From the NCBI GenBank assembly GCA_030626845.1, contig DAOUTG010000015.1, positions 1 through 42,461 of the forward strand: DNA of 42,461 nt. The letters run 5' to 3'. Each line of letters starts with the position of its first letter. The first letter of the stretch is position 1. This DNA comes from Methylococcaceae bacterium (GTDB lineage Bacteria > Pseudomonadota > Gammaproteobacteria > Methylococcales > Methylomonadaceae). The translations under genes and the position numbers were made by a program. Below the pieces are notes generated by a model. That model was not told the DNA's origin and made no database searches. It was given only the letters and a program-made list of their open reading frames with translations. Positions 19,047 to 42,461 of this stretch are shown piece by piece.

Positions 19047-19877
19047 ATGCCAATTTCCAACAACAATAAATCTACAAATGCTTTCACAGGCGTACTCACC
19101 AATTCTTTATCCAGAGGCGGTGAACTCCTTTTAGCGGAAACCATTGAAATGCTTGGATACCAAGATACCGAAGCACATACACGTCTTAATTATAAAAATG
19201 CGCGAATACGATTAAACAACAACCGCAATGATACCGATATAGGAAATAAAATTGTTATTAGTCCTTATTCCCCGTGGTATTTTAAACCTTCAGTTTTCAA
19301 AAAATGGCTAACTGCATTTCCATCAAGGCAAGGTATTTCAGTGCATATTCCACAAACTCAAGTATTAGCTCCTATCCTTGAAGAACTCAATTATCGCCAT
19401 ATTTTAATTATGCGGGATCCTAGAGCCTTATTAGCCAGCATTCTTTTTATTGATGAACTCCCTTTGTATTTTTTACACTCTGATTTTGAAACCTTAACGC
19501 CAAGTCAACGTTTACGGTTTATCGCAGAAGGCGGTTATGCAGAAAAAGCACAAGCAACCGTAGTTAGTTTTGCTAAAGTTTATCGTTCAATGTTAGCATG
19601 GAAAAATTCTGAAGACTGTTTAATGGTATCTTATGAAGCATTAGTGGGTGATTTAGGCTTTCAACAACAAAAACAAGCCTTAACAAATATTGCTGATTAT
19701 TTAGAGACAAGCTTTGATGAAGCTATTTTTGAACAATTAAACCGAGATAACGCTTCATGGAAAGCACATCTTAAAGTTAATCAACTAAAAGAATGGGAAG
19801 ATATTATGGGGTTAGAAAATTTGAATTATATTATGGATTATTGTCAACCACTTTGCTATGAGGCAGGTTATAAATAA
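19047..19877 (+). CDS. Sulfotransferase-like protein (divergent PAPS site)
   Basis: The 276-residue protein is predicted to transfer sulfate from PAPS to a hydroxyl or amine. The 3'-phosphate-binding segment is clear: YRHILIMRDPRALLASILF, with Arg-Asp-Pro at 123-125. The 5'-phosphosulfate loop at residues 20-29 (SLSRGGELLL) departs from the usual PRSGTT type. C-terminal YEALVGDLG resembles the late part of sulfotransferases. There is no signal peptide. The next gene, another sulfotransferase, starts on the last base of this one (TAATG), so the two are translationally coupled. This is the first gene of the plus-strand arm. The acceptor is unknown. Alternatively it is a degenerate, non-PAPS nucleotide-binding relative. 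Confidence 0.72.
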   Translation: MPISNNNKSTNAFTGVLTNSLSRGGELLLAETIEMLGYQDTEAHTRLNYKNARIRLNNNRNDTDIGNKIVISPYSPWYFKPSVFKKWLTAFPSRQGISVHIPQTQVLAPILEELNYRHILIMRDPRALLASILFIDELPLYFLHSDFETLTPSQRLRFIAEGGYAEKAQATVVSFAKVYRSMLAWKNSEDCLMVSYEALVGDLGFQQQKQALTNIADYLETSFDEAIFEQLNRDNASWKAHLKVNQLKEWEDIMGLENLNYIMDYCQPLCYEAGYK

Positions 19878-20527
19878 TGTTAATCTCTCATAAATACCGT
19901 GTCATTTTTATACATATTCAAAGAACAGGCGGAACTTCTGTCAGTAATGCATTGATTGAAGCTGATCCTGATATTGTTTACGAATTACCGCTTGATCCCC
20001 AAAAAAAACGTCAAAAACATTGTTTCATTAGTGATATATATCCCATTTTATCATCTGAAATATTTTCAGATTACACTAAATTTAGTATTGTAAGAAATCC
20101 TTACGAGCGTTTATTTTCATGGTATTCAATGTTTAAACATAAAACAATTAACCCAGGTAATGTTCCAGAAATATCCAATGCAATTACTTGGTTTGATACC
20201 GTAGAAGCACAGATGAAACCTTTTATGAATAGCTTTGAGGATTTTTTATCTCTACCCAATGAGGATTTTTTTCAACGTTTTTATTATAACCAATTGGATT
20301 ATTTACAAATTAATCAAAAATTAGCCGTAGATAATATATTACGTTTTGAAAACTTAACTGATGATTTTAATTGTTTAGCACAAAAACTTAATATTAAAAT
20401 AAACTTACCTCATATCAATCAATCCGTTAATAAAAATAGTTATCGTGATGCTTATACAGAAAAAACACAAAATCTTATAGCAGAACGCTTCCAAGAAGAT
20501 CTTAATTATTTTGGTTATGTATTTTAA
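19877..20527 (+). CDS. Sulfotransferase family 2-like protein, copy A
   Basis: The 216-residue protein belongs to the Sulfotransfer_2 (carbohydrate type) family. The 5'-phosphosulfate loop is FIHIQRTGGTSVSNALIE (residues 11-28) and the 3'-phosphate motif is FSIVRNPYERLFSWYSMF (69-86), followed by FEDFLSLP and the late ILRFENLTDDFNCLAQKL. No membrane anchor is seen, in contrast to eukaryotic relatives. It is paralogous to the gene at 29950: both start M-(L/F)-IS, and both end with a helical YTEKTQ/YTKQL stretch then an acidic-aromatic tail. Coupled to the upstream sulfotransferase by TAATG; 46 bases from the reductase downstream. Confidence 0.85.
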   Translation: MLISHKYRVIFIHIQRTGGTSVSNALIEADPDIVYELPLDPQKKRQKHCFISDIYPILSSEIFSDYTKFSIVRNPYERLFSWYSMFKHKTINPGNVPEISNAITWFDTVEAQMKPFMNSFEDFLSLPNEDFFQRFYYNQLDYLQINQKLAVDNILRFENLTDDFNCLAQKLNIKINLPHINQSVNKNSYRDAYTEKTQNLIAERFQEDLNYFGYVF

Positions 20528-20573
20528 TTAACCTGAATCATCAAATCTTAAACCCCATAAGCAGGAAATCTTT

Positions 20574-21779
20574 ATGTCAACAGAGATTAATTTAAAGGAA
20601 GAAGCTGTTCTTGATACAACGATTCAATTTCAACAACCATTATCAAAAAACATTGCTAATCCTAAGGCTATTTTTTTAACAGGAACAACGGGTTTTTTTG
20701 GTGTTTATCTATTACATGAATTACTGTGTAAAACCAACGCTAAAATCTATTGCCTTATTCGTAGTAAAAACCAACAAGAATCCGCTCAACAGCGTCTTGA
20801 ACAACATCTGCATTTTTACTCACTTTGGGATGAAAAATTTTCTTCACGCATTATTCCCGTTTCAGGTGATCTGTCGCACCCTCAATTTGGGCTTTCTAAT
20901 GAAAGCTTCAATAAATTAGCAACAACAATTGATGTTATTTATCATAATGGGGCTTGGGTTAATGCGATTTATCCCTATTCATTATTAAAAAAAACCAATG
21001 TTAATGGTACCATTGAAATACTTCGTTTAGCGAGTCTGGGTCAAACTAAACCATTACACTTTATCTCAACGATTGCTGTTTTTTTTAGTACCCCTTATCA
21101 AGCGCATCAAAAAATTCTAGAAACAGAACCGCCTAATGCTCATCTTAAAGGGGGTTATAAACAAAGTAAATGGGTTGCAGAAGGTTTAGTTTTAGAGGCT
21201 CAAAAACGGGGGTTACCTTGCTGTATTTATCGCTTAGGTCGGGTTATGGGAGATAGTAAAACAGGGATTACCCAAAATCTTAATGACCTGTTAATCAGTA
21301 TGATGAAGGTCTGTATTTTATTAAAAAAATATCCCGACTGGAAAACTTCGCTCTCTTTAATTCCTGTTGATTATAGCGCGCAAGCCGTTATTCATTTATC
21401 GTTACAAAAACAATCCACAGGAAAAACATTTCATATTCTAAACCCCAATTCTATTCAATGGGCAACATTTTTTGAAACAATAAAGCAATTAGGTTATCCC
21501 TTAGAAAAGGTTTCTCATCAACAATGGCAGCTAGCAATTGAAGCTTATGCTCATGAAAATAAAGAGACTAAATTTAACGCTATTTTACGTTTTGTTTTAA
21601 ATTCATCAACCGCCATGAGTCAGGACAAACCAGACTTTGATAGCACTCAAACTTTAGCAGGATTAAAAAATAGCCATCTTGAATGTCCAACCGTAGATAC
21701 CCAACTAATTTCAACTTGGTTTTCTTACTTTCAACAATGCAAACATATTTTATTACCCACTGATGTTAGCCAAGAGTGA
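20574..21779 (+). CDS. Stand-alone thioester reductase (SDR, NRPS terminal-reductase type)
   Basis: The protein reduces a carrier-bound acyl thioester to an aldehyde or alcohol with NAD(P)H, releasing the product of an NRPS-like line. The 401 residues show the Rossmann loop FLTGTTGFFGVYLLHELL (34-51) and IYCLIRSKNQQ, then VSGDLSHPQFGL, YHNGAWVN, and HFISTIAVFF. The catalytic Tyr and Lys are in YKQSKW (195-200). SLIPVDYSAQAVIHL follows, matching reductase domains at the end of NRPS modules. It is a free enzyme and not fused, so it must act in trans, most likely on the carrier of the A-PCP-C protein at 39243-42461. Shine-Dalgarno AGGAAA. Its last codons overlap the first ATG of the next frame by four bases. 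Confidence 0.88.
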   Translation: MSTEINLKEEAVLDTTIQFQQPLSKNIANPKAIFLTGTTGFFGVYLLHELLCKTNAKIYCLIRSKNQQESAQQRLEQHLHFYSLWDEKFSSRIIPVSGDLSHPQFGLSNESFNKLATTIDVIYHNGAWVNAIYPYSLLKKTNVNGTIEILRLASLGQTKPLHFISTIAVFFSTPYQAHQKILETEPPNAHLKGGYKQSKWVAEGLVLEAQKRGLPCCIYRLGRVMGDSKTGITQNLNDLLISMMKVCILLKKYPDWKTSLSLIPVDYSAQAVIHLSLQKQSTGKTFHILNPNSIQWATFFETIKQLGYPLEKVSHQQWQLAIEAYAHENKETKFNAILRFVLNSSTAMSQDKPDFDSTQTLAGLKNSHLECPTVDTQLISTWFSYFQQCKHILLPTDVSQE

Positions 21780-21877
21780 AAAAACTTATTTTTTCACCCC
21801 AATTACATATCGACTTAAATTTCATCACCCGCTTAATGAAGTCACTCAAATCTAGATTAGGCTTAAAAGAGAAAAAT

Positions 21878-23005
21878 ATGATTATTTTAAAAAATATTAG
21901 CGTTCCTATAGCCATCGTTTTTTTATCACTCTTAAGCTTACAAGTTAATGCCACAGAGATTGCCAAAACGATTCCTTTTGATTTAGAACAATGGGAAATT
22001 AATGATAAAGACGGAAAGTTTATTGATTATTTAGGACAAAAAAGCCTATTACTTAAAACGGGCAATGCTATTATTAAAGACTCTAATTTTACCAGTGGAA
22101 TTATTGAGTACGATATTGCTTTTAGTTCTGAACGAACTTATGCGGGCGTGATGTGGCGTTGGCAAAATTCAGAAAATTATGAAAAATTTTTTATGCGTGC
22201 GCACCAATCAGGACAGCCCGATGCTAATCAATATACACCTGTTTTCAATGGATTAGATGGTTGGCAATTATATTATGGAGAAGGTTATGGCGCACCGGTT
22301 GATTATGTTTATAACGAGTGGATGCATGTCAAGTTAGTTGTCTTTGATGGAAAAGCAGAAGTTTATATCCGCGATATGAATAAACCTGCATTATTAATTA
22401 ATGATTTAAAGCGTGCGACTAAATCAGGAAAACTTGGCTTAATAGCAAATTCAAATCCTACTTATTTTTCTAACTTTAGTTATACCGAAATGAGTAAGCC
22501 TTCTTTTAAAGGGGTATTCAAAACTCAAAAAGAACCTGCCATTGGAACCATTATGTCTTGGTCAGTTTCGGATGCTTTCGATGAAAAATCATTAGAAAAT
22601 AAACTCACCCTAACAGAAGAGGATAAAAATGGCCGTAGTTGGACAAGTCTTGCGAGTGAAACTAATGGTTTAGCGAATTTGGCTAAAATTCAAGCGACTG
22701 AAAAAGCTAAAGATACCATTTTTGCTCGAATAACTATCAACTCAGATAAGGATCAAACAAAATTATTTCGTTTTGGTTTCAGCGATAAAGCCAAGGTCTA
22801 TTTAAATAATCAATTGATTTATGGGGGTAATAATATCTATGGAACAAGAGATTATCGCTTTCTAGGAACCATTGGACTTTTTGATGAACTCTATTTACCT
22901 TTAAAGAAAGGCGATAATGAACTTTATGTGGCTGTCTCTGAAATTTTTGGGGGTTGGGGACTTATCGCAGAACTTGCCAATATAGAGGGTATTTCAATTA
23001 AATAA
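21878..23005 (+). CDS. Secreted two-domain lectin-like (LamG/DUF1080-like) protein
   Basis: The ATG at 21878 is preferred (375 residues). It has AAAGAGAAA upstream and begins a clear signal peptide (MIILKNISVPIAIVFLSLL, cleavage near VNA-TE). An upstream ATG at 21776 would overlap the reductase by four bases and give an unusual leader. Domain one, about 25-205 of the shorter form, is a concanavalin-like fold (FDLEQWEINDKDGKFIDYLG, YAGVMWRWQNSENYEKFFMRAHQ, GAPVDYVYNEWMHVKLVVFDGKAEVYI). Domain two, about 215-375, is beta rich with a KVYLNNQLIYGG-type galactose-binding pattern. No catalytic motif is visible. It is probably a periplasmic or surface carbohydrate-binding protein, convergent with the sulfatase gene. 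Confidence 0.7.
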   Translation: MIILKNISVPIAIVFLSLLSLQVNATEIAKTIPFDLEQWEINDKDGKFIDYLGQKSLLLKTGNAIIKDSNFTSGIIEYDIAFSSERTYAGVMWRWQNSENYEKFFMRAHQSGQPDANQYTPVFNGLDGWQLYYGEGYGAPVDYVYNEWMHVKLVVFDGKAEVYIRDMNKPALLINDLKRATKSGKLGLIANSNPTYFSNFSYTEMSKPSFKGVFKTQKEPAIGTIMSWSVSDAFDEKSLENKLTLTEEDKNGRSWTSLASETNGLANLAKIQATEKAKDTIFARITINSDKDQTKLFRFGFSDKAKVYLNNQLIYGGNNIYGTRDYRFLGTIGLFDELYLPLKKGDNELYVAVSEIFGGWGLIAELANIEGISIK

Positions 23006-23020
23006 TTTAGCAAAAACAAA

Positions 23021-23045: not shown

Positions 23046-23066
23046 CCAGATTAAAATAGCTAACTA

Positions 23067-25547
23067 TTAGAAACCATCTTGTGTTGCTTTTGTTAATAAG
23101 TTTGGTAACGAATCAACCAAGGTAATTTTATCACCATAGCGTTCAAGATTATAAATATAGATATTATTATCACTGGGTTTATAACCTAAATAGGTTTTAG
23201 TTTCAGGATAATAACGTGCTTTATAGCCTTCAATTTGCATTAATTTCTTGCCATTTGTTGCTAATAATGCAGGATCAACTTTACCTTCACCCCAGTTCAT
23301 CACCCGATCATATTCAGTCACATCGCCTACTGTTTCCGCGACTTGCGTCACTAAAATTTGATTAGTTGACATTTGTGGTTGATTTTCACGCGCCATAATG
23401 ACTTGACTTGTCCGTGTTTGACCTAAAGCATCACTAGGAACACTGACTGTTGCTTCAACGTTAGCTGATTCTCCTGCGGCTAATGTAACACTAACGGCAG
23501 ATGATAAAGTACAGACCCAATCTGATTGGCAACTTAAATTATAAGTTTCTGCATTATCACCACGATTAGTTACTTGAAATAGATAACGAACATCGGTACC
23601 AGGGCTAACATTCGTTTCTTTTTTTGCATTTTGAGGCACAATCCCTACATTTTGCTCGTATTCGTTATACATTCCCATTAACTGGGTTAGTTTTTCTGGG
23701 TTTTGTTCACCAAGATCATTAGACTCTAAAACATCTTCGGTTAAATTATAAAGTCTCCAAGGCTCATTCGCACCCAGTCCCCAGCCTCCATTCCCTAAAC
23801 GCAAAATTTTCCAAAGCTGTCCTTCTTCTTCATAAAATAAAGCTTTATTAGGACTTTCACCAATGATTTTCCTATTTTGATCTCTTGCTGGATTGCCAAA
23901 GAGTTCATAACCAATGGGTTCATTTGCGTGAGCTGATTGTTCTGAGCCATCAAGTACCTTACGGATACTTTTACCATTCATAGGACAAATATTAGTTTTA
24001 CCTTCATAAGTCCCTGTACAATTATCCCAATCAGGTTTAACCCCAACGCCTACAGGATGTTGAACACTCGCATAATCTAATATGGTTGCCGCTAAATCAG
24101 CTACTGTTGCAATAGAATCACTTTTAGAGCCTGCTTCAATATTTCCTGCAGGATAGGCAATCACCATTGGAGCGCGAATTCCCCCTTCTGCAACTGTTCC
24201 TTTTGAGCCATAAAGTGAACCATTCACTGCTTGTACCCATTGTGGACCATTAGAAGTAAAAGAGCCTCTATCACCCATATTTTCAAACGAATTATCCGTG
24301 CCTTTATGAAGCAGCATATCACGTTCTAACCAATCCCATTCAACGCCATCACCACCATTATCAGAAAAATAAATGAAAACCGTATTCTCATATTCACCAA
24401 TATTTTTTAAATGCGTTACCATACGGGCGACTTCTGAATCAAATAATTCAATCATCCCTGTATAGATAGCCATTTTCTTCGCTAACACTTTTTTAAGGTC
24501 ATCAACGGTTTGAATATTTCCCCATGTGACATTATAAGGCGGTTCGGTCACTTTTTTCATTAGTGTATCCCACTTAGGATCACTATCATTCGCCCATTCA
24601 GGAAAATCAGCACGCCTTGCAGGAAAATCTTGCGTACTAGGAATTAAACCTGACGCCTGCATTTTTTGAAAACGCTCTGCACGAATACCATCCCAACCTT
24701 GTTGATAATATAAGTCTATATATTCTTGTTTAATTAACTCAGGTGGAAGCTGATTAGGTTCATGTGGCATAGTATCAGCGTAATACAAGAAAAATGGTTT
24801 ACGCTCAGTATTGGCACTTTTACCTTCATCAATATACTCAATCGCTTTATCAGTATGAGCCGTTGCACTAAAATAATCAGGTGGAAATTCTTCAGTCGGT
24901 GAAATTATTTTATCATTTTCAAAAAAACGTGAACAAAAACCTTCTGTTCTTTCACAAGAACCATAATGTTCAGCTCCACCATTTAAAACCCCGTAGCTCT
25001 TTTCAAAGCCTTGATCAATAGGCCATGTTCCTCGAAGGAATACCGGTTGATGGTCAATAAGCGTACTTTCACCTAAATGCCATTTACCAACCATATAGGT
25101 ATCATAATTACTATCTTTTAATAATTTTGAGACCATAATACTTTGTTCATTAACATAAGCTTTATAACCTGGAACCCCTACTTGTACATTTTGGGGGTTG
25201 AGTAGCTGAGGTTCCATTGTTCCTAAGCCATTGATATGGTTATCTATTCCTGTCAAAAAAACGGAGCGTGATGGAGAACAAGTAGGTAAAGCATGAAAAT
25301 TAGTAAATGTTTTACCCACACTGGCCAAACTATCCATTGCAGGCGTTTTTGCTTCTCCTCCAAAACTTGCAAAATCTGCATAACCTACATCATCAGCAAC
25401 TAATAATACAATATTAGGTCGCGTATCATTTGCTGCCATTGAAAAACTTGAATACAACAGGGGTATCGTAGCAAGTAATAGATGCCTTCGATTGATTGAA
25501 GCCTCTTTTTGAGGCTTCATTTTTTTTCTAAAATACTTATTTAACAT
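23067..25547 (-). CDS. Type I sulfatase (formylglycine-dependent), exported
   Basis: The 826-residue enzyme hydrolyses sulfate esters. After an N-terminal leader with RRHLLLATIPLLYSSFSMA (possibly Sec or Tat-like), the core starts RPNIVLLVADDVGYADF with metal-binding Asp-Asp. The formylglycine motif is CSPSR (90-94) in HALPTCSPSRSVFLTG. VGKWHLGE and the late VFIYFSDNGG segment complete the site. The C-terminal 170 residues include an Ig-like NEW3-type domain (RYLFQVTNRGDNAETYNLSC, then ANVEATVSVPSDALGQTR). The start at 25547 has GAGAG five bases upstream. The maturation enzyme is not in this window. It follows the octaheme cytochrome gene by 112 bases, and ends at its own terminator. Confidence 0.9.
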   Translation of the reverse strand: MLNKYFRKKMKPQKEASINRRHLLLATIPLLYSSFSMAANDTRPNIVLLVADDVGYADFASFGGEAKTPAMDSLASVGKTFTNFHALPTCSPSRSVFLTGIDNHINGLGTMEPQLLNPQNVQVGVPGYKAYVNEQSIMVSKLLKDSNYDTYMVGKWHLGESTLIDHQPVFLRGTWPIDQGFEKSYGVLNGGAEHYGSCERTEGFCSRFFENDKIISPTEEFPPDYFSATAHTDKAIEYIDEGKSANTERKPFFLYYADTMPHEPNQLPPELIKQEYIDLYYQQGWDGIRAERFQKMQASGLIPSTQDFPARRADFPEWANDSDPKWDTLMKKVTEPPYNVTWGNIQTVDDLKKVLAKKMAIYTGMIELFDSEVARMVTHLKNIGEYENTVFIYFSDNGGDGVEWDWLERDMLLHKGTDNSFENMGDRGSFTSNGPQWVQAVNGSLYGSKGTVAEGGIRAPMVIAYPAGNIEAGSKSDSIATVADLAATILDYASVQHPVGVGVKPDWDNCTGTYEGKTNICPMNGKSIRKVLDGSEQSAHANEPIGYELFGNPARDQNRKIIGESPNKALFYEEEGQLWKILRLGNGGWGLGANEPWRLYNLTEDVLESNDLGEQNPEKLTQLMGMYNEYEQNVGIVPQNAKKETNVSPGTDVRYLFQVTNRGDNAETYNLSCQSDWVCTLSSAVSVTLAAGESANVEATVSVPSDALGQTRTSQVIMARENQPQMSTNQILVTQVAETVGDVTEYDRVMNWGEGKVDPALLATNGKKLMQIEGYKARYYPETKTYLGYKPSDNNIYIYNLERYGDKITLVDSLPNLLTKATQDGF

Positions 25548-25583
25548 AACTACTCTCTATCCTTATTAATTAGAGTAATACAC

Positions 25584-29379: not shown

Positions 29380-29937
29380 TTATTCGCCACGAAAGAATTG
29401 ATACGGAAATTTTTCAGTAATAATCATAATGATCTTATTATTTGAGGAAACGGTATAAGTTCTTGCGATCATTTTATCATTTGCTGAAATATTAAAATGC
29501 GTTGCTAATTCGCTTGCTAGCTCTTCACCTGCTCCCACAATGACTTTATAAGTTTCACAGCGATATTTCGCCCAGAGCTTACCAATAGGTTCTTGAGAAT
29601 TTAATAAATCAGTACGAAAATTAACTTCAAGATTATTAATAATTACCACTGACTCAGCATAAAGCCAATTATTCAAGGTATTTTGCCCTTGTAACAAGGT
29701 TTTTCTTTTTAAAAATACACGCTCATCAGCAGGCATAAGTTCTTGCTGAAGGTCTGATAATTGATTCAAATCTTCTTCAATATTTTCATAAAGCTTGACC
29801 ACTTTAATAGATTCATTCAGGTATTGTTCTAATAATTCAGTTACTGTTCCATCGGTAATTAATAAAACGCGCTGGAAAGTCGTTAATTCTTTTAAAAGTT
29901 GCTTATCGGGATGCTTTTTCATTAATTCACTATCCAT
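29380..29937 (-). CDS. Chorismate pyruvate-lyase family (DUF98) protein
   Basis: The 185-residue cytoplasmic protein fits the DUF98 family, which includes mycobacterial 4-hydroxybenzoate-forming chorismate lyase (Rv2949c). Matching segments are FQRVLLITDGTVTELLEQYLNESIKVVKL, RVFLKRKTLLQGQ, LYAESVVIINNLE (the substrate-pocket strand), and EPIGKLWAKYRCETYK. The expected reaction is chorismate to 4-hydroxybenzoate plus pyruvate. The family also includes proteins of other function, so the reaction is inferred. It lies 12 bases after a sulfotransferase gene and three bases before a ligase gene, giving a plausible produce-and-activate unit. A second ATG (residue 6) could be the real start. Confidence 0.82.
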   Translation of the reverse strand: MDSELMKKHPDKQLLKELTTFQRVLLITDGTVTELLEQYLNESIKVVKLYENIEEDLNQLSDLQQELMPADERVFLKRKTLLQGQNTLNNWLYAESVVIINNLEVNFRTDLLNSQEPIGKLWAKYRCETYKVIVGAGEELASELATHFNISANDKMIARTYTVSSNNKIIMIITEKFPYQFFRGE

Positions 29938-34420: not shown

Positions 34421-34968
34421 GCTTTATTTTATGCCTGTTTTTATTCATTAGTTTATTTTCACCTCCTTTACTAACGGGTGAATTTTCAACACAAATTAAA
34501 GCGGTAAAATTTGAGAAAAATGCTCACGGGTATCAACTTAAAGCAGATGTTGATTATCATCTCAGTCCTATCGCAACCGAGGCAATTCAAAGTAGTATAG
34601 CCTTAACCTGGTGTTTAAAAATTAAATTAGAACAAATAAATACCTTATGGAATAACATACTGATTAAGCATAAATACTGCTATAAAATTCGCTATCATGC
34701 CCTATTAGACAGTTATAGTGTTAATGACCCTAACAGCCAAAAAAATAAGTATTTTACTTCACTTGTAACAGCATTAGATTCAATGTCGCAAATACGCCAT
34801 ATCAAGCTTATTAAAGCCTCGGCACTTAATAAAAATATTTTATATACCGTTGCCACTAAACTACAATTCGAGCGAGAAACCTTACCATTAGCACTAAAAC
34901 CTATTGCTTACCTTAATTCAGATTGGGATTTATCAAGCCCCTGGCAACAGTGGAAATTACAACCTTAA
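34417..34968 (+). CDS. DUF4390 protein, secreted or anchored
   Basis: The 183-residue product starts at GTG (overlapping the ATPase stop as GTGA) with a hydrophobic leader (MSFILCLFLFISLFSPPLL), possibly a signal peptide or anchor. The body matches DUF4390: YQLKADVDYHLSPIATEAIQSSIALTWCLKIKLEQ, then YKIRYHALLDSYSVND, and the terminal LPLALKPIAYLNSDWDLSSPWQQWKL. In many gammaproteobacteria DUF4390 lies beside ntrY/ntrX, so pairing with a P-type ATPase is unusual. The role is unknown. Its stop lies only six bases from the convergent sulfotransferase stop. Confidence 0.8.
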   Translation: MSFILCLFLFISLFSPPLLTGEFSTQIKAVKFEKNAHGYQLKADVDYHLSPIATEAIQSSIALTWCLKIKLEQINTLWNNILIKHKYCYKIRYHALLDSYSVNDPNSQKNKYFTSLVTALDSMSQIRHIKLIKASALNKNILYTVATKLQFERETLPLALKPIAYLNSDWDLSSPWQQWKLQP

Positions 34969-34974: not shown

Positions 34975-36210
34975 TCAAATTAATAAATTTTCATTCCTTA
35001 ATTGCTTTATTAAACCTGCAAGACTTGATAAATAAGGGCTTATTTCCGCTTCATATTGTCGCCATTTATCCGTTACAGGCGGTGAAATAACCATCGTTGA
35101 TAAAGGTAAAGGTTGTGAAAATAATTGATTTATCTCATCACTCCAAGTTAATTGTGCAAAAGAACTCAGCCGTTGAAAAGTCTTTCTAGGTTGTTCAATT
35201 AACTCTTTATAAGTCACAAAACAATACGCATTTTCAGTTAAATCACTCAAATCATTTAAAATTGTTTGATTAGCCATCCGCCATTGATAAGTGGCAATTT
35301 CCGCCAGTGAGCTATCTTTTAAACTTTCCCAGTTAGGCGGCAATAAACCATACCATTCTTTGTGAGACCAACGAGGCATATCTTTATAAGTTAAAAAGCG
35401 ACTAGAACGCCAGAATTCTAATAAACTACTGATATTTTCAAGCGGATCACGATAAAGAAAAATAAACCGTGCTTGAGGAAATACTTGTTTTAAAAAAGGA
35501 ATTCTGAGTGAGTTTTTAGGAGTTTTTTCTAAAAATCTAATTTTTTTAGGTGGATTTTCAATTTTAGTATAAGCTGTTTTTTCGCTATTTTGTAATCGCT
35601 TTGCAAACCAGTGTTTTACGTCAGTAGCAACCGCCGAAGAAGCCTCAGTTAAGCGATTAGATTTATAATCATGCGCTTTCGGATGTAAATAGTTTATATC
35701 CATTTCAATGTCGTGGCTTTCTTGACCAATACTCCATATTTCTTCAAATTTGGATAAATTTTCAAATAATAAAGAACTTCCTGAACGAGGGGCTGAAACA
35801 ATAAACAAAGGGCGGTCAAATTCAGGGTGCAGAGAAGACTCTAGTAATGGTACTTGCTGGGGTTTTCGTCTATGAAATAAACGTTTTTTTTGAATTTGCA
35901 AAGCCCCTTGAGGATAAAGCATAAATTCAATCGCAATGACCGCTTGTTTATCCTTCCCCTCAGTAGATAAATATTTTCTTATCTTCGTTAGAACCGCTTC
36001 TTTAAAATAAAATATCACATCCCGATAACTTAATTCACCGATAGGGTTTTGCTGAAAACGCGTATAAACTACTTGCCAGCGCCCTAAAAAAGTTTCAAAA
36101 CATGTTTCTTGTGCCACTTTATCAATAATAGATAACTTTTCTAAACAGCCCCCTTGTCGTATAGCTTCAACTAATTGTTTAACCTCTAAAGGCGATAATA
36201 CTTTTTCCAT
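34975..36210 (-). CDS. Sulfotransferase (canonical PRSGS type)
   Basis: The 411-residue protein has the most canonical PAPS site of the four. The 5' loop is PLFIVSAPRSGSSLLFENL (134-152), and the 3' region is EKTPKNSLRIPFLKQVFPQARFIFLYRDPLENISSLLEF (228-266), followed by a late TYKELIEQP. The first 130 residues are an extra helical N-terminal region not seen in minimal sulfotransferases, possibly a docking part. No anchor or signal is found. It is the last gene of the operon 42461-34975, four bases after the aminotransferase. The acceptor is probably the product of the upstream enzymes, inferred from position. Confidence 0.9.
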   Translation of the reverse strand: MEKVLSPLEVKQLVEAIRQGGCLEKLSIIDKVAQETCFETFLGRWQVVYTRFQQNPIGELSYRDVIFYFKEAVLTKIRKYLSTEGKDKQAVIAIEFMLYPQGALQIQKKRLFHRRKPQQVPLLESSLHPEFDRPLFIVSAPRSGSSLLFENLSKFEEIWSIGQESHDIEMDINYLHPKAHDYKSNRLTEASSAVATDVKHWFAKRLQNSEKTAYTKIENPPKKIRFLEKTPKNSLRIPFLKQVFPQARFIFLYRDPLENISSLLEFWRSSRFLTYKDMPRWSHKEWYGLLPPNWESLKDSSLAEIATYQWRMANQTILNDLSDLTENAYCFVTYKELIEQPRKTFQRLSSFAQLTWSDEINQLFSQPLPLSTMVISPPVTDKWRQYEAEISPYLSSLAGLIKQLRNENLLI

Positions 36211-36214
36211 TTTA

Positions 36215-37435
36215 TTAGCCTATTTCATCAGGAAATGACGCAGGCAAATTATTCATAGCCCTTACTATTTCCTCGCGTGAACCAAAAGCACTTAAGCGTA
36301 AATACCCCGTTCCCGCTAGACCAAACATTGAACCAGGGGTCCCCACTAATCCTGTATGGTGCATTAAGTACTCGAAAAATTCCCATTCATCCATTTCTGC
36401 AATCACTTTAACCCATAGATAAGGGTTATCTACTGCCCCGAAACACCGTAAACCTAAACTTTTCAAACCTTGACGTAACAACTTTGCATTCTGTAAATAA
36501 TAATCAACAATCGCTTGGGACTCTTGTTGTCCTTCTTCAGACAATAAAGCTAATGCCCCCCGTTGAGCAATATTAGATGGTCCCCAATATTTTATTTGAT
36601 GCTGCATTGACCACATTTTATGCAATTCATTTTCTTTAGAATCTTTAATCATCAAGGTTTTAGGAATAATACACCAACCCACTCGTAATCCTGTAAAACT
36701 CGCTTCTTTAGAAAAAGAGCTAATTTCTATCGCACACTTTTTTGCCCCTTCTATTTCGTAAATAGAACGTGGTATATTTTCGGTACTAATAAAAGATTGA
36801 TAAGTCGCATCAAAAATAATAACCGCCTGATTTTCAAGTGCGTAATCAACAAAGGCTTGCAATTGCTCAAACGTAGCCGATTGCCCAGTAGGATTATTAG
36901 GAAAACATAAACATAAAATATCAACTTTTTCTTTAGGAGGTTTTGGAATAAAACCATTTTCTTCATAACAGGGCAAACTTAAATAACGCCGTCCTGTTAA
37001 TTTAATCCCTTCAATAAAGGCAGGGTAACCTGGGTCTTGCAAAGCAATAACACTGTCTTGAGAAAATAATTCTTGAATGGCACTACAAATTAATTGAGCG
37101 CCATCCGTAATAAATATTTCATCAACATCAAGTGCAACGGTGAATTTTTGTTGATAACGATTCGTCAGTGCTTGTTTTAATTCATTATTACCTGTCACAG
37201 GTTCATAACTAGTGTAAGTTTCAGCCTCGCCTAAGCCTAAACTATAATCACTCATCGCCTTAACAGCCGTTGCGGGTAAAGGATGACTGGTATAACCAAA
37301 GCTCATCGTATACACAGGACGCGAATGTTTTTCCTGATAAGCCTTGATAATCTTCATCAATTTATTTTCAATAAAATCAACAAAGCTTGAGTTATCTGAG
37401 GACATTTGACTTAATAACGGGTTTTTATTTGCCAT
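36215..37435 (-). CDS. PLP aminotransferase, DapL-like subgroup
   Basis: The 406-residue fold-type I PLP aminotransferase resembles LL-diaminopimelate aminotransferase more than AspC. The key PLP-lysine segment is EISSFSKEASFTGLRVGWCIIPK. Early segments are ITDGAQLICSAIQELF, LQDPGYPAFIEG, CLCFPNNPTGQSAT and VIIFDATYQSFI. The end is GTPGSMFGLAGTGYLRLSAFGSREEI, like DapL. In this context, between a TPP enzyme and a sulfotransferase, it probably aminates a keto or aldehyde intermediate for the product rather than serving lysine synthesis. The true donor is unknown. Confidence 0.85.
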   Translation of the reverse strand: MANKNPLLSQMSSDNSSFVDFIENKLMKIIKAYQEKHSRPVYTMSFGYTSHPLPATAVKAMSDYSLGLGEAETYTSYEPVTGNNELKQALTNRYQQKFTVALDVDEIFITDGAQLICSAIQELFSQDSVIALQDPGYPAFIEGIKLTGRRYLSLPCYEENGFIPKPPKEKVDILCLCFPNNPTGQSATFEQLQAFVDYALENQAVIIFDATYQSFISTENIPRSIYEIEGAKKCAIEISSFSKEASFTGLRVGWCIIPKTLMIKDSKENELHKMWSMQHQIKYWGPSNIAQRGALALLSEEGQQESQAIVDYYLQNAKLLRQGLKSLGLRCFGAVDNPYLWVKVIAEMDEWEFFEYLMHHTGLVGTPGSMFGLAGTGYLRLSAFGSREEIVRAMNNLPASFPDEIG

Positions 37436-37452
37436 TTATATTTTCCTAACTT

Positions 37453-39231
37453 TTACTGGTCAATTGGGGGGGCTTCATCAGCATCAATATAAACATCCAA
37501 TACAGTAGGCCCTTGACGTTGACAAATCGCCTTGAAGTCAAGGGTATCAAAATCTTCTGGATTACGAAGTGTATAACCTTCTGCGCCCACTGATTTTGCC
37601 ATCATGACAAAGTCCGTAGGAATGACGGCAAATTCAAGAGGTATTGTTCCTATTTGATGATTTCTATGTTTAACTGCCCCATAACACCCATCATTTAAAA
37701 TAATAAAAATCACAGGTAATTTTTCAGTAACCGCTACGGTAATTTCATGACCATACATTAAATAACTCGCATCACCCACTAATGAAATAACAGGCGTTCC
37801 TCTTTTTCCCAACGCCGTTCCTATTGCACTCCCTGGCGACCACCCCATTGAACAAGGCCCTGTGGTTATCATTCGGTAATTTTCAAAATTTGCCCAAAAA
37901 TGATAATGAACTGTCCACTCTACGGCTGTTCCATTATCAATTAAGAGTAAAGTTTCAGCAGGAAACCGTCGCATTAATTCATACATTAATCGCTGCGGTT
38001 TAATTGGACTACTTTTATTTTGATGAGCATCAGGAATATTTAATTGAATTTGAGGCGGAGGTAAATAATTAGCAGCACAAGTCTCACCTGCTTTATAATC
38101 TAATTTTGAATTATCAAAACAAAGAGAATTTAATTTTCCTTCTGTTAAATCAATTTTCAGTGTCGCTATCAATTGCTGAAAGACCTCCCCTGTCCTACCT
38201 TGAACCTGTAATCTTGCCATCGGTGAACGGGGGAAATAAATGGTTGAATGATGAATATGAACTAATTTCTCATTCATTAACATACCATCCCAAGACTTAG
38301 TTCCCATTTGTCCAAGACTTGTTCCTACTGCCAAAATTAAACCCACTGATTCATCTAACAAAGCATCCCGTGCTGTTTTATGCCCCCCCACACCAAAGAC
38401 CCCTTTAAATAAAGGGTGATAAGGATTTACTCTAGATTTACCACGTAAAGAAGTCACGATAGGCGCGTGAATCATTTCAGCAAATTGCATTATGGTTTCA
38501 GTTGCCCCATCACATTCATAGCCTATAAACAAAGCCACTTTTTTATTTTTTGCTAACACCTCGATAATAATATCTGAGAGTTCAGTGACTGCCCTATTAT
38601 CAATAGTAGAAGTCGTTGCCGCTTTTGTGACTAAAGTTGATAAATTAGGATAAGCCAATGCCTCTGAACAAGGTGCGCGAAGAATATCCGCGGGAATCCC
38701 CAAATGAACAGGGGCTTGTAGCGGTTGATGCGCGCTAATCAATGCAGTCGCTAATTTTCCTTGTAACTGTTTTGGATGAGTAATTAGTGAATTATATTTA
38801 GTACAATGCTCTAACATCCCGATACTATCAATAATATCGGGAAAATTACCTTGATAAGGCGTACATTCTTGTAACGCCCCTTTCCCTGCGGTCGCTAATG
38901 CCGTTTGTCCTGTTATCACTAATAAAGGCGCGTGAGCGGCATAAGCTTCTGCAACCCCTGTCACAATATTTGTCGCTCCAGGCCCTGCGGTTGTTAGACA
39001 AACCCCTAACTTTCCTGTCTCTAAAGCATAACCTGCGGCCATAAATGCCGCCCCTGTTTCATGAATATTCATGATAGTGCGTATTTTTCCACGCTGTTCG
39101 CTACGATATAATGATTCATAAAGTGAAGCAACATGCCCCCCTGCAATACCAAATACGTATTCCACCCCAATTTGTTCTAAATAAGCCACAATTAAATCAC
39201 TTAGCGTGGTAATTTCTTGCGTTTCCGACAT
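37453..39231 (-). CDS. TPP-dependent enzyme, acetolactate-synthase/decarboxylase type
   Basis: The 592-residue enzyme shows the three-domain pattern of TPP decarboxylases and carboligases. The PYR domain has catalytic Glu58 in MNIHETGAAFMAAGYALETG, followed by TTAGPGATNIVTGVAEA. The central domain has VALFIGYECDGA. The PP domain shows GDASYLMYGHEITVAVTEK with ILNDGCYGAVKH, the metal and TPP binding motif. It is ALS-like by sequence, but no small regulatory subunit is nearby, so ilvB function is unlikely. It may decarboxylate or couple a 2-keto acid to give a precursor for the aminotransferase. It starts 11 bases after the A-PCP-C gene. Confidence 0.88.
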   Translation of the reverse strand: MSETQEITTLSDLIVAYLEQIGVEYVFGIAGGHVASLYESLYRSEQRGKIRTIMNIHETGAAFMAAGYALETGKLGVCLTTAGPGATNIVTGVAEAYAAHAPLLVITGQTALATAGKGALQECTPYQGNFPDIIDSIGMLEHCTKYNSLITHPKQLQGKLATALISAHQPLQAPVHLGIPADILRAPCSEALAYPNLSTLVTKAATTSTIDNRAVTELSDIIIEVLAKNKKVALFIGYECDGATETIMQFAEMIHAPIVTSLRGKSRVNPYHPLFKGVFGVGGHKTARDALLDESVGLILAVGTSLGQMGTKSWDGMLMNEKLVHIHHSTIYFPRSPMARLQVQGRTGEVFQQLIATLKIDLTEGKLNSLCFDNSKLDYKAGETCAANYLPPPQIQLNIPDAHQNKSSPIKPQRLMYELMRRFPAETLLLIDNGTAVEWTVHYHFWANFENYRMITTGPCSMGWSPGSAIGTALGKRGTPVISLVGDASYLMYGHEITVAVTEKLPVIFIILNDGCYGAVKHRNHQIGTIPLEFAVIPTDFVMMAKSVGAEGYTLRNPEDFDTLDFKAICQRQGPTVLDVYIDADEAPPIDQ

Positions 39232-39242
39232 TGGTAAATTTC

Positions 39243-42200
39243 CTAAATATTTAAATCAACAGGTTTAATTAACTGCTCTGGATTAGTAATCATCGTATTT
39301 AATAATACGTTGAAATTTGCTATCATTTTTAAGATTGTTGAGGTTTCAAATAAATCACTTCTATATCTAAATTTTGCTTTCAAGACATTACCTTCATCAT
39401 GCTTTTCTTCCCATATCGGCATCGCTAAATCCAAAAACATCTTTTCTCTAATATTTTCTTCAATAGGTGAAGCTATAATACCTGCACTTCTTATTTCTGT
39501 TACTGGTGTAGGTAATAAATTGAGCATGACTTGATAAGGCATCTGATAGTTTAAATCCTTGGGTTCTTTTTCATCTAAAGCTTTTATAACTTGCTTATAA
39601 GTTAATTCTTGATGAGTAAGTGCCGATTGAAGTGCAAGCTGTGTTTGATTTAATAAATTTGAAAAGGTTAATGAGTCACTGAAACTAATACGTATGACTA
39701 TTTGTCCCGAAAAATCCCCAAATATAGATTCTGTTTCTTGATGAAACCGTTTACTCATGGGGACTGCAATAACAATTTCTTTATTTCCAGTATAACGATA
39801 AAGTAATGCTGCTAATAAAGAAAATAAGCTGATAAATAAGGTTATTCCTCGTTGCTGGCTTAAGGCTTTTAAATCATCGGTTAATTTAGCTGAAAGCTGA
39901 AATCCCTCAATGGCGGCAGGAAAGGTAGAACCATTAGTTATTCTAGGTTTATCTGTGATTAAATTTAATCGAGGTAAGTCAACAGGGAATAATTCCTGAT
40001 AATATTTAAGGCACTCGGTTAGTTTTTTCTTGCTATAACACGCACGCTGCCAATGTGCGAAATCCGCATATTGAATTGGTAATAGCGGTAATAATGAAGA
40101 TGAATCTTGTTTCAATAAATTTATTTCATATAATTTAAATAAGTCACGAAAAAATATTTCCATGGAACTTGCATCCATAATAATATGATGAATGTAAACC
40201 CATAAGATATGAGATTTATCGTTAAGGCGTATTAATTTTACCCGCCACGGAGGACTATTGATTAAATCAAGCGGTTGTTGTGTTTCTTGCAAAATCAAAT
40301 CATCCACTTCTTCTGTTTGTTCTGGCTCTGAGATAAAACTCAAATCAATCACTTGCAAGTAAAATCGTAACTTAGACACAATTTGTTGTAGGGGAAAACC
40401 ATCTTTTAATGGAAAATTAACCCGTAAATTTTCATGACGCTGAATTAATTCATTGATACTTTTCTGTAAACATTGAATATCAATTGTTCCTGTTAACTTC
40501 CAAAAATTAAGCCGACTCCAAAGTTTATTATTGTCTTGTGATTGACAGTTAAACCAAACTTCTTCTTGTAAAAAAGACAATGGCATAGCTTGATCTCTTG
40601 CCACCTTTTGAATTTTTGGTATTTCAGCGTCAGAAGATAAATTCCATATTTTTACCAAATAATTAGCTAATAATTCAGTCGTAGGATAATGCCAAGCAAC
40701 CACAGGATCAACGGCTCGTTCTGAGCGTGAACCTAAATCTCGCATTAATTTCATTGTTAAAATTGAAGTCAACCCATATTCAGTAAAAGCTTTATCTATT
40801 TGAATTTCTTCAATCGCTAATTTAAACTGCTTTGATAACCATTCCATAATCCATTGTTGAATTAATTCGACTGATAATGATTCGCTATTGGTTGTTCCAC
40901 TAGGGGGTGCTTGCAAACCCAAATCGACTTGTTCACGTAACACGCGTTTCAGTATTTTTCCTGATTTTGCTTTTGGCAAAGCCGCTATAAAATTAACCGT
41001 AGAAGGAATTTTATAACCTGCCATTAATCCTTGGCAATAATCAATAATTTCGGTTTCATCTGCCTTTTGCCCTGATTGCAAAACAACCGCTGCACAAACC
41101 TGCTCCCCCATCACCGCAACAGGAATACCATAAACAGCCACTTCGGCAATCGCAGGATGCTCTGCTAAAATAGCTTCTACCTCGGAAGGATACATACTTT
41201 GCCCACCGACATTAAGCATATCTTTTTTACGGTCATTAATAAAAATATAACCGTCTATATCCTTATAGCCAATATCTCCTGTATAAAACCAGCCGTCTTT
41301 AATCGCATCAGCAGTTTCTTTCGCGCGATTCCAATAACCTAAAATTATTTTGGGACTTTTAACCACGAGTTCGCCCGATTGCCCTACAGCAACCGATTCT
41401 CCATCCTCATCAACAACCTTTATTTCAACACCTTCTACAGCAGCACCTACTGCCCCTGCTTTAGGTTTTAAATAATGATTAAAACAACATTGTGAACATT
41501 CGGTCAAACCATAAGATATATTAATCGTTTGTTTGAATTTTTGTTGCCATTTTTGAGCTAACTCTGAAGGCATTGCCGTTCCTCCAGAAATATAAAAACG
41601 TACTGATTGCATTTGTTCTAAACTGGCTTTTTCAACTAAAACTGAATAAACAGGCGTTGAGCCATAAAAACAGCTAATCTTATGCTCAGTAATTGAGTTA
41701 ATCACCGCATTCGGCTCAAAATCACGATGTAAAATAATCGTACTCGCCGTGGCCATACAGGTATTTAAACCCGCACTGAGGGTAAAGCTATGCGATAACG
41801 GTGAAAACAACAGCACCCGGTCATCAGGCTGCATTCGATATAAATAAGCGGTTGTACGCGCATCAAAAATTATATTACCATGGGAAATAACCGCGCCTTT
41901 AGGAAATCCCGTTGTCCCTGAGGTATAAAGAATCGCTGAAGGGGCATCAGCTTTCATCACTTCAGTTTTAAAATTAACTGCGCTTTGATTAATAAGATTG
42001 GCTAAAGAAATATCGCCTTTAACCGCACCTTCAGTAATTAAAATATGAACTAACTGTAATACGTCCTCATTATTAATAGCCTTTCGTAAATTCTCGGTAG
42101 TGATTAAAGCAATTGCACCACTATCATTAACAATATAGCTCACTTCTCTAGCAGTCAGAGCAGGGTTCACAATAACAGCAACCGCGCCTAATTTTTGAAT

Positions 42201-42461
42201 AGCAAAATAACTGCTAATAAATTCAGAGCTATTAGGTAAAAATAATACCACTCGCTCACCGCGTTTAATCCCTAATTGTGATAATCCTGTTGCAATTTGA
42301 TTACTGATATTATTGAGTTCTTCAAAGGTAAATGCTTGTTCTTCAAAAATTAATGCTGTTTTTTCAGGAAACAACCGACTTGCTTGTTCAAGATTATTAG
42401 CAATATTGAGCGAAATTTTTTCTGTTATAACAGTTTCTGGCTCATTTTCTTTTTGAACCGA
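39243..42461 (-). CDS. NRPS-like acyl ligase - carrier - condensation protein, 5' end outside window
   Basis: The frame is open to the window edge, with a TTG at 42374 but coding sequence upstream of it (NIANNLEQASRLFPEK), so the start is outside. Numbering from 42374: a FadD-like adenylation domain (about 1-490; ATP motif ILYTSGTTGFPKGAVISHGN, WFYTGDIGY, VGGQSMYPSEVE, PKAKSGKILKR). Next is a carrier domain (505-580) with the pantetheine Ser537 in EYGLTSILTMKL. Last is a condensation domain (595-1043) with active site HHIIMDASS (729-737), where Ala replaces the usual Gly after Asp. The C domain seems complete. It is an acyl loading and condensing unit that must receive its amine partner from elsewhere. 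It is the most upstream visible gene of the operon. Confidence 0.9.
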   Translation of the reverse strand, partial: SVQKENEPETVITEKISLNIANNLEQASRLFPEKTALIFEEQAFTFEELNNISNQIATGLSQLGIKRGERVVLFLPNSSEFISSYFAIQKLGAVAVIVNPALTAREVSYIVNDSGAIALITTENLRKAINNEDVLQLVHILITEGAVKGDISLANLINQSAVNFKTEVMKADAPSAILYTSGTTGFPKGAVISHGNIIFDARTTAYLYRMQPDDRVLLFSPLSHSFTLSAGLNTCMATASTIILHRDFEPNAVINSITEHKISCFYGSTPVYSVLVEKASLEQMQSVRFYISGGTAMPSELAQKWQQKFKQTINISYGLTECSQCCFNHYLKPKAGAVGAAVEGVEIKVVDEDGESVAVGQSGELVVKSPKIILGYWNRAKETADAIKDGWFYTGDIGYKDIDGYIFINDRKKDMLNVGGQSMYPSEVEAILAEHPAIAEVAVYGIPVAVMGEQVCAAVVLQSGQKADETEIIDYCQGLMAGYKIPSTVNFIAALPKAKSGKILKRVLREQVDLGLQAPPSGTTNSESLSVELIQQWIMEWLSKQFKLAIEEIQIDKAFTEYGLTSILTMKLMRDLGSRSERAVDPVVAWHYPTTELLANYLVKIWNLSSDAEIPKIQKVARDQAMPLSFLQEEVWFNCQSQDNNKLWSRLNFWKLTGTIDIQCLQKSINELIQRHENLRVNFPLKDGFPLQQIVSKLRFYLQVIDLSFISEPEQTEEVDDLILQETQQPLDLINSPPWRVKLIRLNDKSHILWVYIHHIIMDASSMEIFFRDLFKLYEINLLKQDSSSLLPLLPIQYADFAHWQRACYSKKKLTECLKYYQELFPVDLPRLNLITDKPRITNGSTFPAAIEGFQLSAKLTDDLKALSQQRGITLFISLFSLLAALLYRYTGNKEIVIAVPMSKRFHQETESIFGDFSGQIVIRISFSDSLTFSNLLNQTQLALQSALTHQELTYKQVIKALDEKEPKDLNYQMPYQVMLNLLPTPVTEIRSAGIIASPIEENIREKMFLDLAMPIWEEKHDEGNVLKAKFRYRSDLFETSTILKMIANFNVLLNTMITNPEQLIKPVDLNI

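Follow-up and report, generated by a model that had tools for sequence, protein, structure and literature searches.

The genes at 19047-42461 of the window, i.e. of the whole 42,461-nt stretch of DNA analysed here, form part of a biosynthetic cluster, the conserved core of which is kept on one contig in a second family of the order. Joined to a second contig the cluster is about 34 kb long and encodes a protein of 1779 residues in which a complete Mo/W-bisPGD enzyme, an acyl or aryl ligase, a carrier domain (PCP) and a condensation (C) domain share one reading frame. We think it likely that this is a specialised-metabolite cluster of a methanotroph-containing order which operates by the mechanism proposed below. 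The product would most likely be a chorismate-derived aryl metabolite that is sulfated inside the cell, exported and trimmed by a sulfatase; its nature, the reaction of the Mo domain and the targets of sulfation we infer from the gene families. The features are listed in Table 1.

Table 1. Features of the window (contig C49) and of the adjoining part of contig C108
Feature	Position	Strand	Evidence
Sulfotransferase-like st1 (Sulfotransfer_1, weak)	19047..19877	+	33% homologue beside TR in G690
Sulfotransferase st2 (Sulfotransfer_2)	19877..20527	+	53% in G213:C67
Trans-acting thioester reductase (TR)	20574..21779	+	TIGR01746; 45% in G690, 51% in G005
409-aa probably secreted beta-sandwich protein	21776..23005	+	beside TR and sulfatase in G005; absent from the initial annotation
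Formylglycine-type sulfatase, probably secreted	23067..25547	-	PF00884 135, CSPSR; signal-like start by eye; 45% homologue in G690
Octaheme c-type cytochrome with TPR repeats	25660..27897	-	eight CXXCH; 51% homologue in G690
Stand-alone AMP ligase lig475, candidate aryl-acid activator	27949..29376	-	PF00501 98 bits; homologues in G690 (cut by contig end) and G213
Chorismate pyruvate-lyase-like protein (CPL)	29380..29937	-	PF01947; homologues in G690 and G213
Sulfotransferase st3 (Sulfotransfer_2)	29950..30609	-	49% in G690, 53% in G213, each beside a CPL gene
PvdE/SyrD-type ABC exporter	30643..32271	-	TIGR01194; homologues in three related loci: G690, G213:C67, G694
P1B-like P-type ATPase without CPx motif	32432..34420	+	TIGR01525 358 vs cut-off 346 bits
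DUF4390, probable housekeeping bystander displaced from rsmB	34417..34968	+	Pfam
Sulfotransferase st4 (Sulfotransfer_3)	34975..36210	-	homologues in G690 and G213 clusters
Class I aminotransferase	36215..37435	-	PF00155; TIGR03542 (LL-DAP aminotransferase) 405 vs cut-off 364.7 bits
ThDP enzyme, acetolactate-synthase-like	37453..39231	-	all three TPP domains; best solved relative BbmA
Rear 1072 residues of the 1779-aa fusion: acyl/aryl ligase - PCP - condensation domain	39243..42461	-	Pfam and C108 junction
127-bp overlap	42335..42461		exact match to C108:25837-25963
C108 part of the cluster	C108:15261-25963		DUF697, PBP-OmpA, SPFH, lipoprotein-like, radical SAM, ACP, Zn-dehydrogenase, Mo-enzyme front

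The window is one whole contig of a draft assembly of 116 contigs, and the cluster continues past its right edge at 42461. The exact overlap with the end of C108 was found only at these two contig ends in the genome (G000). C108 adds the Mo/W-enzyme front of the fusion, a Zn-dehydrogenase (ADH), a stand-alone carrier protein (ACP) and a radical SAM protein of the HemN type, which the initial annotation missed because the contig ends. It had described a ligase-carrier-condensation protein; the domains were correct, yet the protein is not complete but the rear of the fusion, truncated at the contig end with its front on C108. For a further contig, C85, no join was found, its right end having no second occurrence elsewhere and its left end having been compared with four other contigs. 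The DUF697, PBP and SPFH accessory genes of C108 may be spread more widely than this cluster. Outside any such cluster, a PBP-like fragment adjoins DUF4390 in the congener G001 (by eye) and a DUF697 relative is found close to the P-type ATPase gene in G005.

Pfam and NCBIfam profiles were run against 19 of the 36 ORFs listed for the window, and Pfam profiles against ORFs of C108. They supported every enzyme named initially, that is the ligase-carrier-condensation domains, TR, the CPL with its own ligase, the TPP enzyme, the aminotransferase, four sulfotransferases, the exporter, the sulfatase, the octaheme cytochrome and the P-type ATPase, and the ORF listing confirmed that the genes are packed with short gaps. 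All four sulfotransferases passed the Pfam cut-offs (PF00685 24.6, PF03567 48.5 and 47.8, PF13469 83.9), st1 barely so with a margin of 2.6 bits over the PF00685 cut-off of 22. TR scored 349 bits with TIGR01746 (curated cut-off 213) and had MxcG as its second match, while the exporter scored 316 bits with the cyclic-peptide-type family TIGR01194 (cut-off 286). The CPL reached 50.9 bits with PF01947 (cut-off 22) but 27.3 bits with the chorismate-lyase equivalog NF037993 of NCBIfam (cut-off 175), and therefore the protein is termed chorismate-lyase-like. The ligase, carrier and C domains (PF00501 291, PF00550 31 and PF00668 260 bits) carry the NRPS-type motifs TSGTTG, GLTS with its Ser, and HHIIMDA (HHxxxD), respectively.

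Besides itself, the ThDP enzyme had five matches of 46-49% identity (E<=1e-90) in 201 genomes of the family, all from one genus. Two of their neighbourhoods (L035, L036) contained no other window gene, and L035, the one annotated, looks unrelated; nothing informative on the reaction was found in the literature on BbmA. The 409-aa protein has a signal-like start (by eye) and no Pfam family. In the 201 family genomes four others match it, one at 38% and three weakly and partially. The front half of its structural model, which is of low confidence (mean pLDDT 60.6, 4 sequences), resembles sugar-binding beta-sandwiches and hints at such a fold.

A check for conserved co-occurrence showed that the core is linked in relatives. 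A single contig of G690 (C195), a genome that belongs to the same order but to a different family, has counterparts of 10 cluster genes, namely both ligases, the CPL, three sulfotransferases (st1, st3 and st4), TR, the octaheme cytochrome, the sulfatase and the ABC exporter. The original proposal of one cluster for chorismate-type, acyl-NRPS and sulfation genes was thus upheld by a distant relative, as was the lack of a matching characterised cluster, none being found in the openly licensed literature. Among the DNA compared, the G690 cluster holds the best match to each of the A, PCP and C domains. Yet A-PCP is a separate 630-aa protein there, and the C domain terminates a KS-AT-methyltransferase-ACP-C protein encoded beside it. 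In further contrast, the Mo enzyme, ADH, ThDP enzyme and aminotransferase are absent from the G690 contig, which ends inside the ligase gene, and had no match in any of the 38 places compared. G213 mixes genes of C108 and C49, with CPL, st3, radical SAM and ACP together on C60, and SPFH, PBP and DUF697 with ABC, st2, lig475 and st4 on C67. The G694 locus contains an APS kinase and two sulfotransferases.

The P-type ATPase, also counted as a member initially, has its best matches (69% and 63%) in congeners outside such a cluster. Its value as a marker was assessed by hand count at 35 ATPase loci, a subset of those found, excluding P-type hits, st2/st3 cross-hits, window housekeeping genes and the G694-derived APS kinase query. 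With no other cluster gene at 23 of the 35 places, the ATPase alone is a poor marker. Other cluster genes numbered 12 at G690:C195, 7 at G213:C67, 4 at G213:C60 and 5 at G694:C46, the last including one generic ligase match and rising to 6 with the ACP of C85. Heavy-metal P1B ATPases have a CPx motif in a membrane helix. The motif is absent from the window ATPase and, at the expected place, from the other 41 copies read; further upstream, TPS was flagged in L193 and APS in L197. In this genome the link between the ATPase and the cluster is weak; the membership of the ATPase is uncertain and it may be a bystander. DUF4390 was rejected as a part of the cluster and is probably a bystander too: of 11 loci examined in relatives, 9 have it next to an rsmB-like gene.

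The Mo-enzyme, ligase, PCP and C domains are one reading frame across C49 and C108. C108 by itself reads through the Mo domain into the start of the ligase. The stretch from residue 696 to 765 contains neither an ATG nor a GTG in frame, and third-position GC is alike on both sides (0.27 and 0.25). The fusion was present in one genome only. No other fused Mo-ligase protein occurred among the relatives that could be judged (L083, L103 and L108, where matches stop at a contig end, were excluded), no Mo/W-NRPS fusion was found in the openly licensed literature, and a scan of genome contigs gave no ligase-PCP-C relative. Matches to ligase-PCP-C at E<=1e-30 in 59 of 61 genomes of the genus, family and order were dismissed; apart from the protein itself, those listed were at most 38% identical, and by identity and frame length they look like generic ligases or NRPS modules.

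The nearest solved relative of the Mo domain is acetylene hydratase of Pelobacter acetylenicus (2e7z; E 8e-113 over 686 residues). Four N-terminal Cys align with those of 2e7z, as does Cys141 with the Cys ligand of the metal. Asp13, the catalytic residue of acetylene hydratase, follows the second Cys; in the fusion this position is His17. The reaction of the Mo domain cannot be named from homology because of this exchange. Of the 87 rows aligned, 80 had His at this position, but the count is biased since one search pattern required CHGG. The relatives considered are the best 80 of 548 from a scan with two short patterns, derived from two sequences and including the CHGG one, and cover proteins that bear either pattern.

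From these families we propose the following mechanism. The chorismate-lyase-like protein would form 4-hydroxybenzoate or a close relative, and a ligase would load this acid or another one onto a carrier; the 4-hydroxybenzoyl product suggested initially, sulfated, possibly lipidated and with an amine part, is thus a putative one. The Mo/W domain and the Zn-dehydrogenase may remove, add or move a ring oxygen, either once the substrate is bound to the fused carrier or immediately ahead of loading. The C domain at the end of the protein would couple the acyl group to an amine, perhaps supplied by the ThDP enzyme and the aminotransferase, and the trans reductase would release the chain as an aldehyde or alcohol. 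PAPS-dependent sulfotransferases would sulfate the product, the ABC exporter would take it out, and the probably secreted sulfatase would trim it. Sulfation may thus be a protecting group in synthesis and export. Some observations speak against this explanation: two ligases compete for the loading role; the Mo enzyme, ADH, ThDP enzyme and aminotransferase, unmatched in the 38 places, might constitute a pathway of their own; the gene rows of L065 and L066 (see below) point to a polysaccharide over a released metabolite; and st1 lies just above, the lyase below, a family cut-off.

Alternatively, the genes might serve to attach sulfate and an acyl group of shikimate origin to a polysaccharide, either extracellular or on the cell surface, and yield no free metabolite, which we regard as unlikely. 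Among the best 80 of 548 relatives, the two closest Mo domains (L065 and L066, from Deltaproteobacteria-type MAGs) are encoded in polysaccharide loci, next to genes for an acyl ligase and for an alcohol dehydrogenase that resembles ADH. The ligase, ADH and Mo genes stand there in a row on a single strand, together with export and sugar-transferase genes, and in L066 three shikimate-pathway genes (DAHP synthase/chorismate mutase, DHQ synthase and DHQ dehydratase) lie between ADH and Mo. Within the same 80, a polysaccharide-export gene occurred in 7 of 21 loci of a hand-picked close clade versus 0 of 59 others. The Sulfotransfer_2 type of st2 and st3 and the possible sugar-binding fold of the 409-aa protein would fit. 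If the sulfatase acted on sugars, as this neighbour may suggest, the protect-and-release idea would fail. On the other hand, the cluster ORFs run matched no family of glycosyltransferases or of polysaccharide export, the PCP, C domain, trans reductase and TIGR01194 exporter are parts of specialised metabolism, and in G690 the KS-AT-methyltransferase-ACP-C protein adjoins the A-PCP gene.

It is rather improbable that two unrelated sets are neighbours here, one being the conserved sulfotransferase-NRPS cluster and the other an acquired pathway of ADH, Mo enzyme and ligase that includes the ThDP enzyme and aminotransferase. The lack of matches to ADH, Mo domain, ThDP enzyme and aminotransferase in the 38 places and the grouping of the window Mo domain with L065 and L066 from other phyla would agree with this, but the Mo domain is in frame with ligase, PCP and C domains that best match the G690 cluster. 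Furthermore, the ADH, fusion, ThDP enzyme, aminotransferase and st4 genes share one strand and are 4-25 bp apart. A metal chelator of the siderophore or chalkophore type is more doubtful still. TIGR01194 exporters and MxcG-type reductases serve siderophores, and MxcG was the second match of TR; yet a receptor family was not seen among the ORFs run and the P-type ATPase lacks the metal motif. Least probable of all is that the fusion of Mo enzyme and ligase arose from an error in sequencing or assembly, since C108 alone reads into the ligase, the overlap is unique to the two ends, the GC values agree and no alternative start precedes the ligase, even though the draft breaks exactly at the junction and one genome only has the fusion.

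Thus we favor the view of a specialised-metabolite cluster. We suggest tentatively that the Mo/W-bisPGD enzyme serves as an in-line NRPS-type domain that removes or moves oxygen on a carrier-held shikimate- or chorismate-derived acyl group, and that the order possesses a cluster family which sulfates the product for synthesis and export and desulfates it outside the cell. If true, a bis-PGD enzyme in a carrier-protein line would add low-potential oxygen-removing chemistry to the assembly-line domains. With its core shared by two families of the order, the cluster stands for a family that can be tested, and protection by sulfate, export and desulfation yields simple knock-out predictions. The Mo-domain relatives in polysaccharide loci are a second lead.

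Compared with acetylene hydratase, the window enzyme differs by the exchange of Asp13 for His, by its fusion to ligase-PCP-C and by its place in a biosynthetic cluster. Bis-PGD enzymes are familiar from respiration and catabolism. A HemN-like radical SAM protein, as seen near the window Mo enzyme, is reportedly encoded in the CC-1065 cluster too, whereas no other CC-1065 gene was recognised here. Mo-dependent catechol dehydroxylases are nearest to acetylene hydratase, and homologues in the CC-1065 and yatakemycin clusters, two Streptomyces clusters, put bis-PGD enzymes into biosynthesis (PMC7028382). The likeness to these is by description rather than sequence, and the accessible parts of that paper do not mention a fusion. 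The tundrenone cluster of Methylobacter was likewise compared by description and not by genes; its metabolite is from a methanotroph lineage as well and, according to the initial annotation, chorismate- and lipid-derived. To our knowledge, few metabolites of methanotrophs have been characterised. Tundrenone is under HSL quorum sensing (PMC6977074), and the Pfam runs on 19 ORFs of the window and on those of C108 showed no HSL synthase. The pyoverdine and syringomycin systems differ by their many-module peptide lines, and a sulfatase is found here instead of an acylase. They share an exporter above the TIGR01194 cut-off. In the pyoverdine pathway PvdQ trims the product in the periplasm after export, and an enzyme of the periplasm could do likewise here.

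Profile searches (Pfam, NCBIfam) and motifs bore out the enzyme list of the initial annotation throughout. The window is a complete contig of 42461 bp (C49) of the assembly G000 (2.51 Mb, 116 contigs, 96% complete). The cluster continued past its end onto a second contig, C108, which we reached by a search for carrier proteins within G000. The final 127 bases of C108 were identical, in reverse orientation, to the final 127 of the window, and this stretch occurred only at these two contig ends across G000. Joining them yielded a fusion protein of 1779 residues, in which a linker of about 20 residues connects a Mo/W-bisPGD oxidoreductase to a ligase, a PCP and a C domain. On C108 by itself the frame of the Mo domain already continued for 40-odd residues into the part in common with the window. 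Between residues 696 and 765 of the fusion the sole usual in-frame start codon was a TTG at 737, within the conserved front of the ligase; in a by-eye alignment the A-PCP protein of G690, a genome of another family of the order, started 12 residues before the matching point. The join was independently supported by G213 (same family, other genus), because two of its contigs intermingle genes split between C108 and C49: one carries CPL-st3-radical SAM-ACP (C60), the other SPFH, PBP and DUF697 along with the exporter, st2, lig475 and st4 (C67). The joined cluster spans about 34 kb from DUF697 (C108:15261) to st1.

Features of the joined cluster (st, sulfotransferase; TR, trans thioester reductase; CPL, chorismate pyruvate-lyase-like protein; lig475, stand-alone AMP ligase)
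Feature	Location	Strand
st1 (from 19047), st2, TR, 409-aa protein	window 19047-23005	+
exporter, st3, CPL, ligase (lig475), octaheme cytochrome, sulfatase	window 32271 down to 23067	-
P-type ATPase	window 32432-34420	+
DUF4390	window 34417-34968	+
ligase-PCP-C, ThDP enzyme, aminotransferase, st4	window 42461 down to 34975	-
Zn-dehydrogenase, 87-aa carrier, HemN-like radical SAM protein	C108, adjoining fusion front	
lipoprotein-like protein (no Pfam family), SPFH, PBP-OmpA, DUF697	C108, beyond the preceding group	
rsmB-like gene (named by eye)	C108, bounding the DUF697 side	

Conservation was assessed with the P-type ATPase as a query against 311 genomes of the order; 49 matched at E ≤ 1e-75 and the neighbourhoods of 35 places were examined. 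Because these places were fetched via the P-type ATPase alone, the other cluster genes were not selected for; at 23 of the 35 no further cluster gene was found. Co-occurrence in relatives, a check asked for by the initial annotation, was found on G690:C195, where core genes lie together. All counterparts on this 34.8-kb contig are on one strand: a ligase (35% identity over 229 residues, up to the contig end), st3 (49%), CPL (31%), A-PCP (43% over 592 residues), a KS-AT-methyltransferase-ACP-C protein (C domain 36%), st1 (33%), TR (45%), the octaheme cytochrome (51%), the sulfatase (45%), st4 (40%) and the ABC exporter (37%). The contig also holds two P-type ATPases, as well as relatives of DUF697 and of the lipoprotein-like protein. 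Among all DNA compared, the A, PCP and C domains of the window each had their top match there. G694:C46, a contig of a further genome, carried the exporter, SPFH, PBP, carrier, P-type ATPases, two sulfotransferases and an APS kinase. In the congener G005, TR, the 409-aa protein and the sulfatase were grouped, with no NRPS within the 17 kb read. In two other genera (L037:8573-13207, L038:5495-10359) a relative of the 409-aa protein lay close to both a sulfatase and a radical SAM protein resembling a sulfatase maturase, the latter with SPASM in L038.

Beside the established gene content, junction and conserved core, a function can be proposed. By family, chorismate lyases produce 4-hydroxybenzoate and ligases charge carrier proteins. 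Terminal C domains work with an amine, chain release by a trans reductase gives an aldehyde or alcohol, and TIGR01194 exporters transport NRPS-type products. In such a metabolite pathway the Mo domain would act on an acyl group attached to the fusion's own carrier, and sulfate may be a protecting or tuning group, later removed by the probably secreted sulfatase.

The relatives of the Mo enzyme point to polysaccharide instead. A quick 62-row tree placed the Mo domain of the window with two loci, L065 and L066 (SH-aLRT 96), whose surroundings hold polysaccharide export and sugar transferase genes. Their dehydrogenases were 63% and 59% identical to the Zn-dehydrogenase of G000, and their ligases 29-30% to the window ligase domain, no closer than generic ligases; both genes lie upstream of the Mo gene in the same orientation, separated by short gaps. 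In L066 the stretch from the dehydrogenase to the Mo gene is occupied by genes for DAHP synthase/chorismate mutase, DHQ synthase and DHQ dehydratase, so the pair probably acts with shikimate-type acids, at least there. Of the 21 loci that we assigned to the close clade, 7 had a polysaccharide-export neighbour, versus 0 of 59 others. The loci of the nearest Mo clade beside such genes included L065, L066, L079-L082 and L103. The gene content of L065/L066-type loci points to a so far undescribed modification of polysaccharides with acyl groups. Further points count against the proposed function: the Mo enzyme, dehydrogenase, ThDP enzyme and aminotransferase had no match in the 38 places compared, a low-confidence model gave the 409-aa protein (no Pfam family) a sugar-binding-like fold, st1 was barely over its profile cut-off, and CPL was below the NCBIfam equivalog cut-off.

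Membership of the P-type ATPase and DUF4390, judged from gene neighbourhoods, appears doubtful. The ATPase was 69% and 63% identical to congener copies outside such clusters, with a DUF697 relative near the G005 copy. Relatives have DUF4390 next to an rsmB-like gene at 9 of 11 loci, and in all five inspected by eye it preceded a sensor-kinase-like gene. In G000 it is displaced from rsmB, which lies at the opposite cluster edge on C108, and is 6 bp from a sulfotransferase gene; insertion with inversion is the likely cause. The CPx metal motif was missing at its expected place in all 42 P1B-like ATPase copies read in the order (window, L191-L230, L052:139-2019). Some of these lay next to or within NRPS, sulfotransferase or ACP genes, the majority elsewhere. 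At L052 (contig C85 of G000, 139-4985), a second sulfotransferase locus of this genome, the ATPase is accompanied by Sulfotransfer_1, an ACP that shares 68% identity with an ACP next to NRPS genes in G091 (L229), and a Sulfotransfer_3 protein whose C-terminal part, cut by the contig end, resembles by eye a condensation-domain start.

The types of parts in the cluster are already known; their combination is new as far as searched. In mostly openly licensed literature, Mo enzyme with NRPS or gene cluster returned one relevant paper (PMC7028382, eLife), methanotroph sulfotransferase clusters returned only papers unrelated by title and abstract, and sulfation-desulfation NRPS prodrugs none. A term search of the main text of a 2025 methanotroph cluster survey gave no word beginning with 'sulfo' (PMC11964084).

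Relatives of the Mo domain were sought in one genome per named species (about 85,000 species) with patterns built from two sequences. We took 80 of at least 548 loci, 41-69% identical to the Mo domain, from Deltaproteobacteria, Nitrospirota, anammox planctomycetes and others. Together with seven more, 87 loci were read; a fusion-length frame was not found among them, the longest being 1181 aa, while three reach a contig end and their length cannot be judged. Anammox-type planctomycetes (L067-L069 and L070, Candidatus Kuenenia) held relatives of 62-64% identity in a neighbourhood common to all four. In the host's own family the Mo domain matched in 10 of 237 genomes (E ≤ 1e-80), the nine besides G000, from other genera (L145-L153, L156), as separate acetylene-hydratase-like proteins with 39-40% identity; the L156 copy adjoins apparent Mo-cofactor genes by eye. 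The AMO/pmoA family was present in 23 of 31 genomes searched in the order (15 of 19 in the own family) and was not found in G000, its congeners G004 and G005, or G008; by gene content the order, probably Methylococcales, includes methanotrophs. Because acetylene blocks methane monooxygenase, a protective role of the family's acetylene-hydratase-like enzymes is worth considering.

The top solved match of the Mo domain was acetylene hydratase (E 8e-113, 381 bits), followed by thiosulfate reductase (253). All four N-terminal Cys align with it, as does the Cys that binds the metal, whereas the catalytic Asp13 of acetylene hydratase is His in the window; four aligned family copies of the separate enzyme have the acetylene-hydratase-like motif CSTCDINC, with Asp. 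According to parts of one paper, acetylene hydratase is the nearest enzyme to related dehydroxylases, and such an enzyme is used in biosynthesis in the CC-1065 and yatakemycin clusters of Streptomyces (PMC7028382). Because these dehydroxylases and cluster enzymes are near acetylene hydratase, oxygen removal is favoured, by analogy and as a first guess, as the reaction of the Mo domain.
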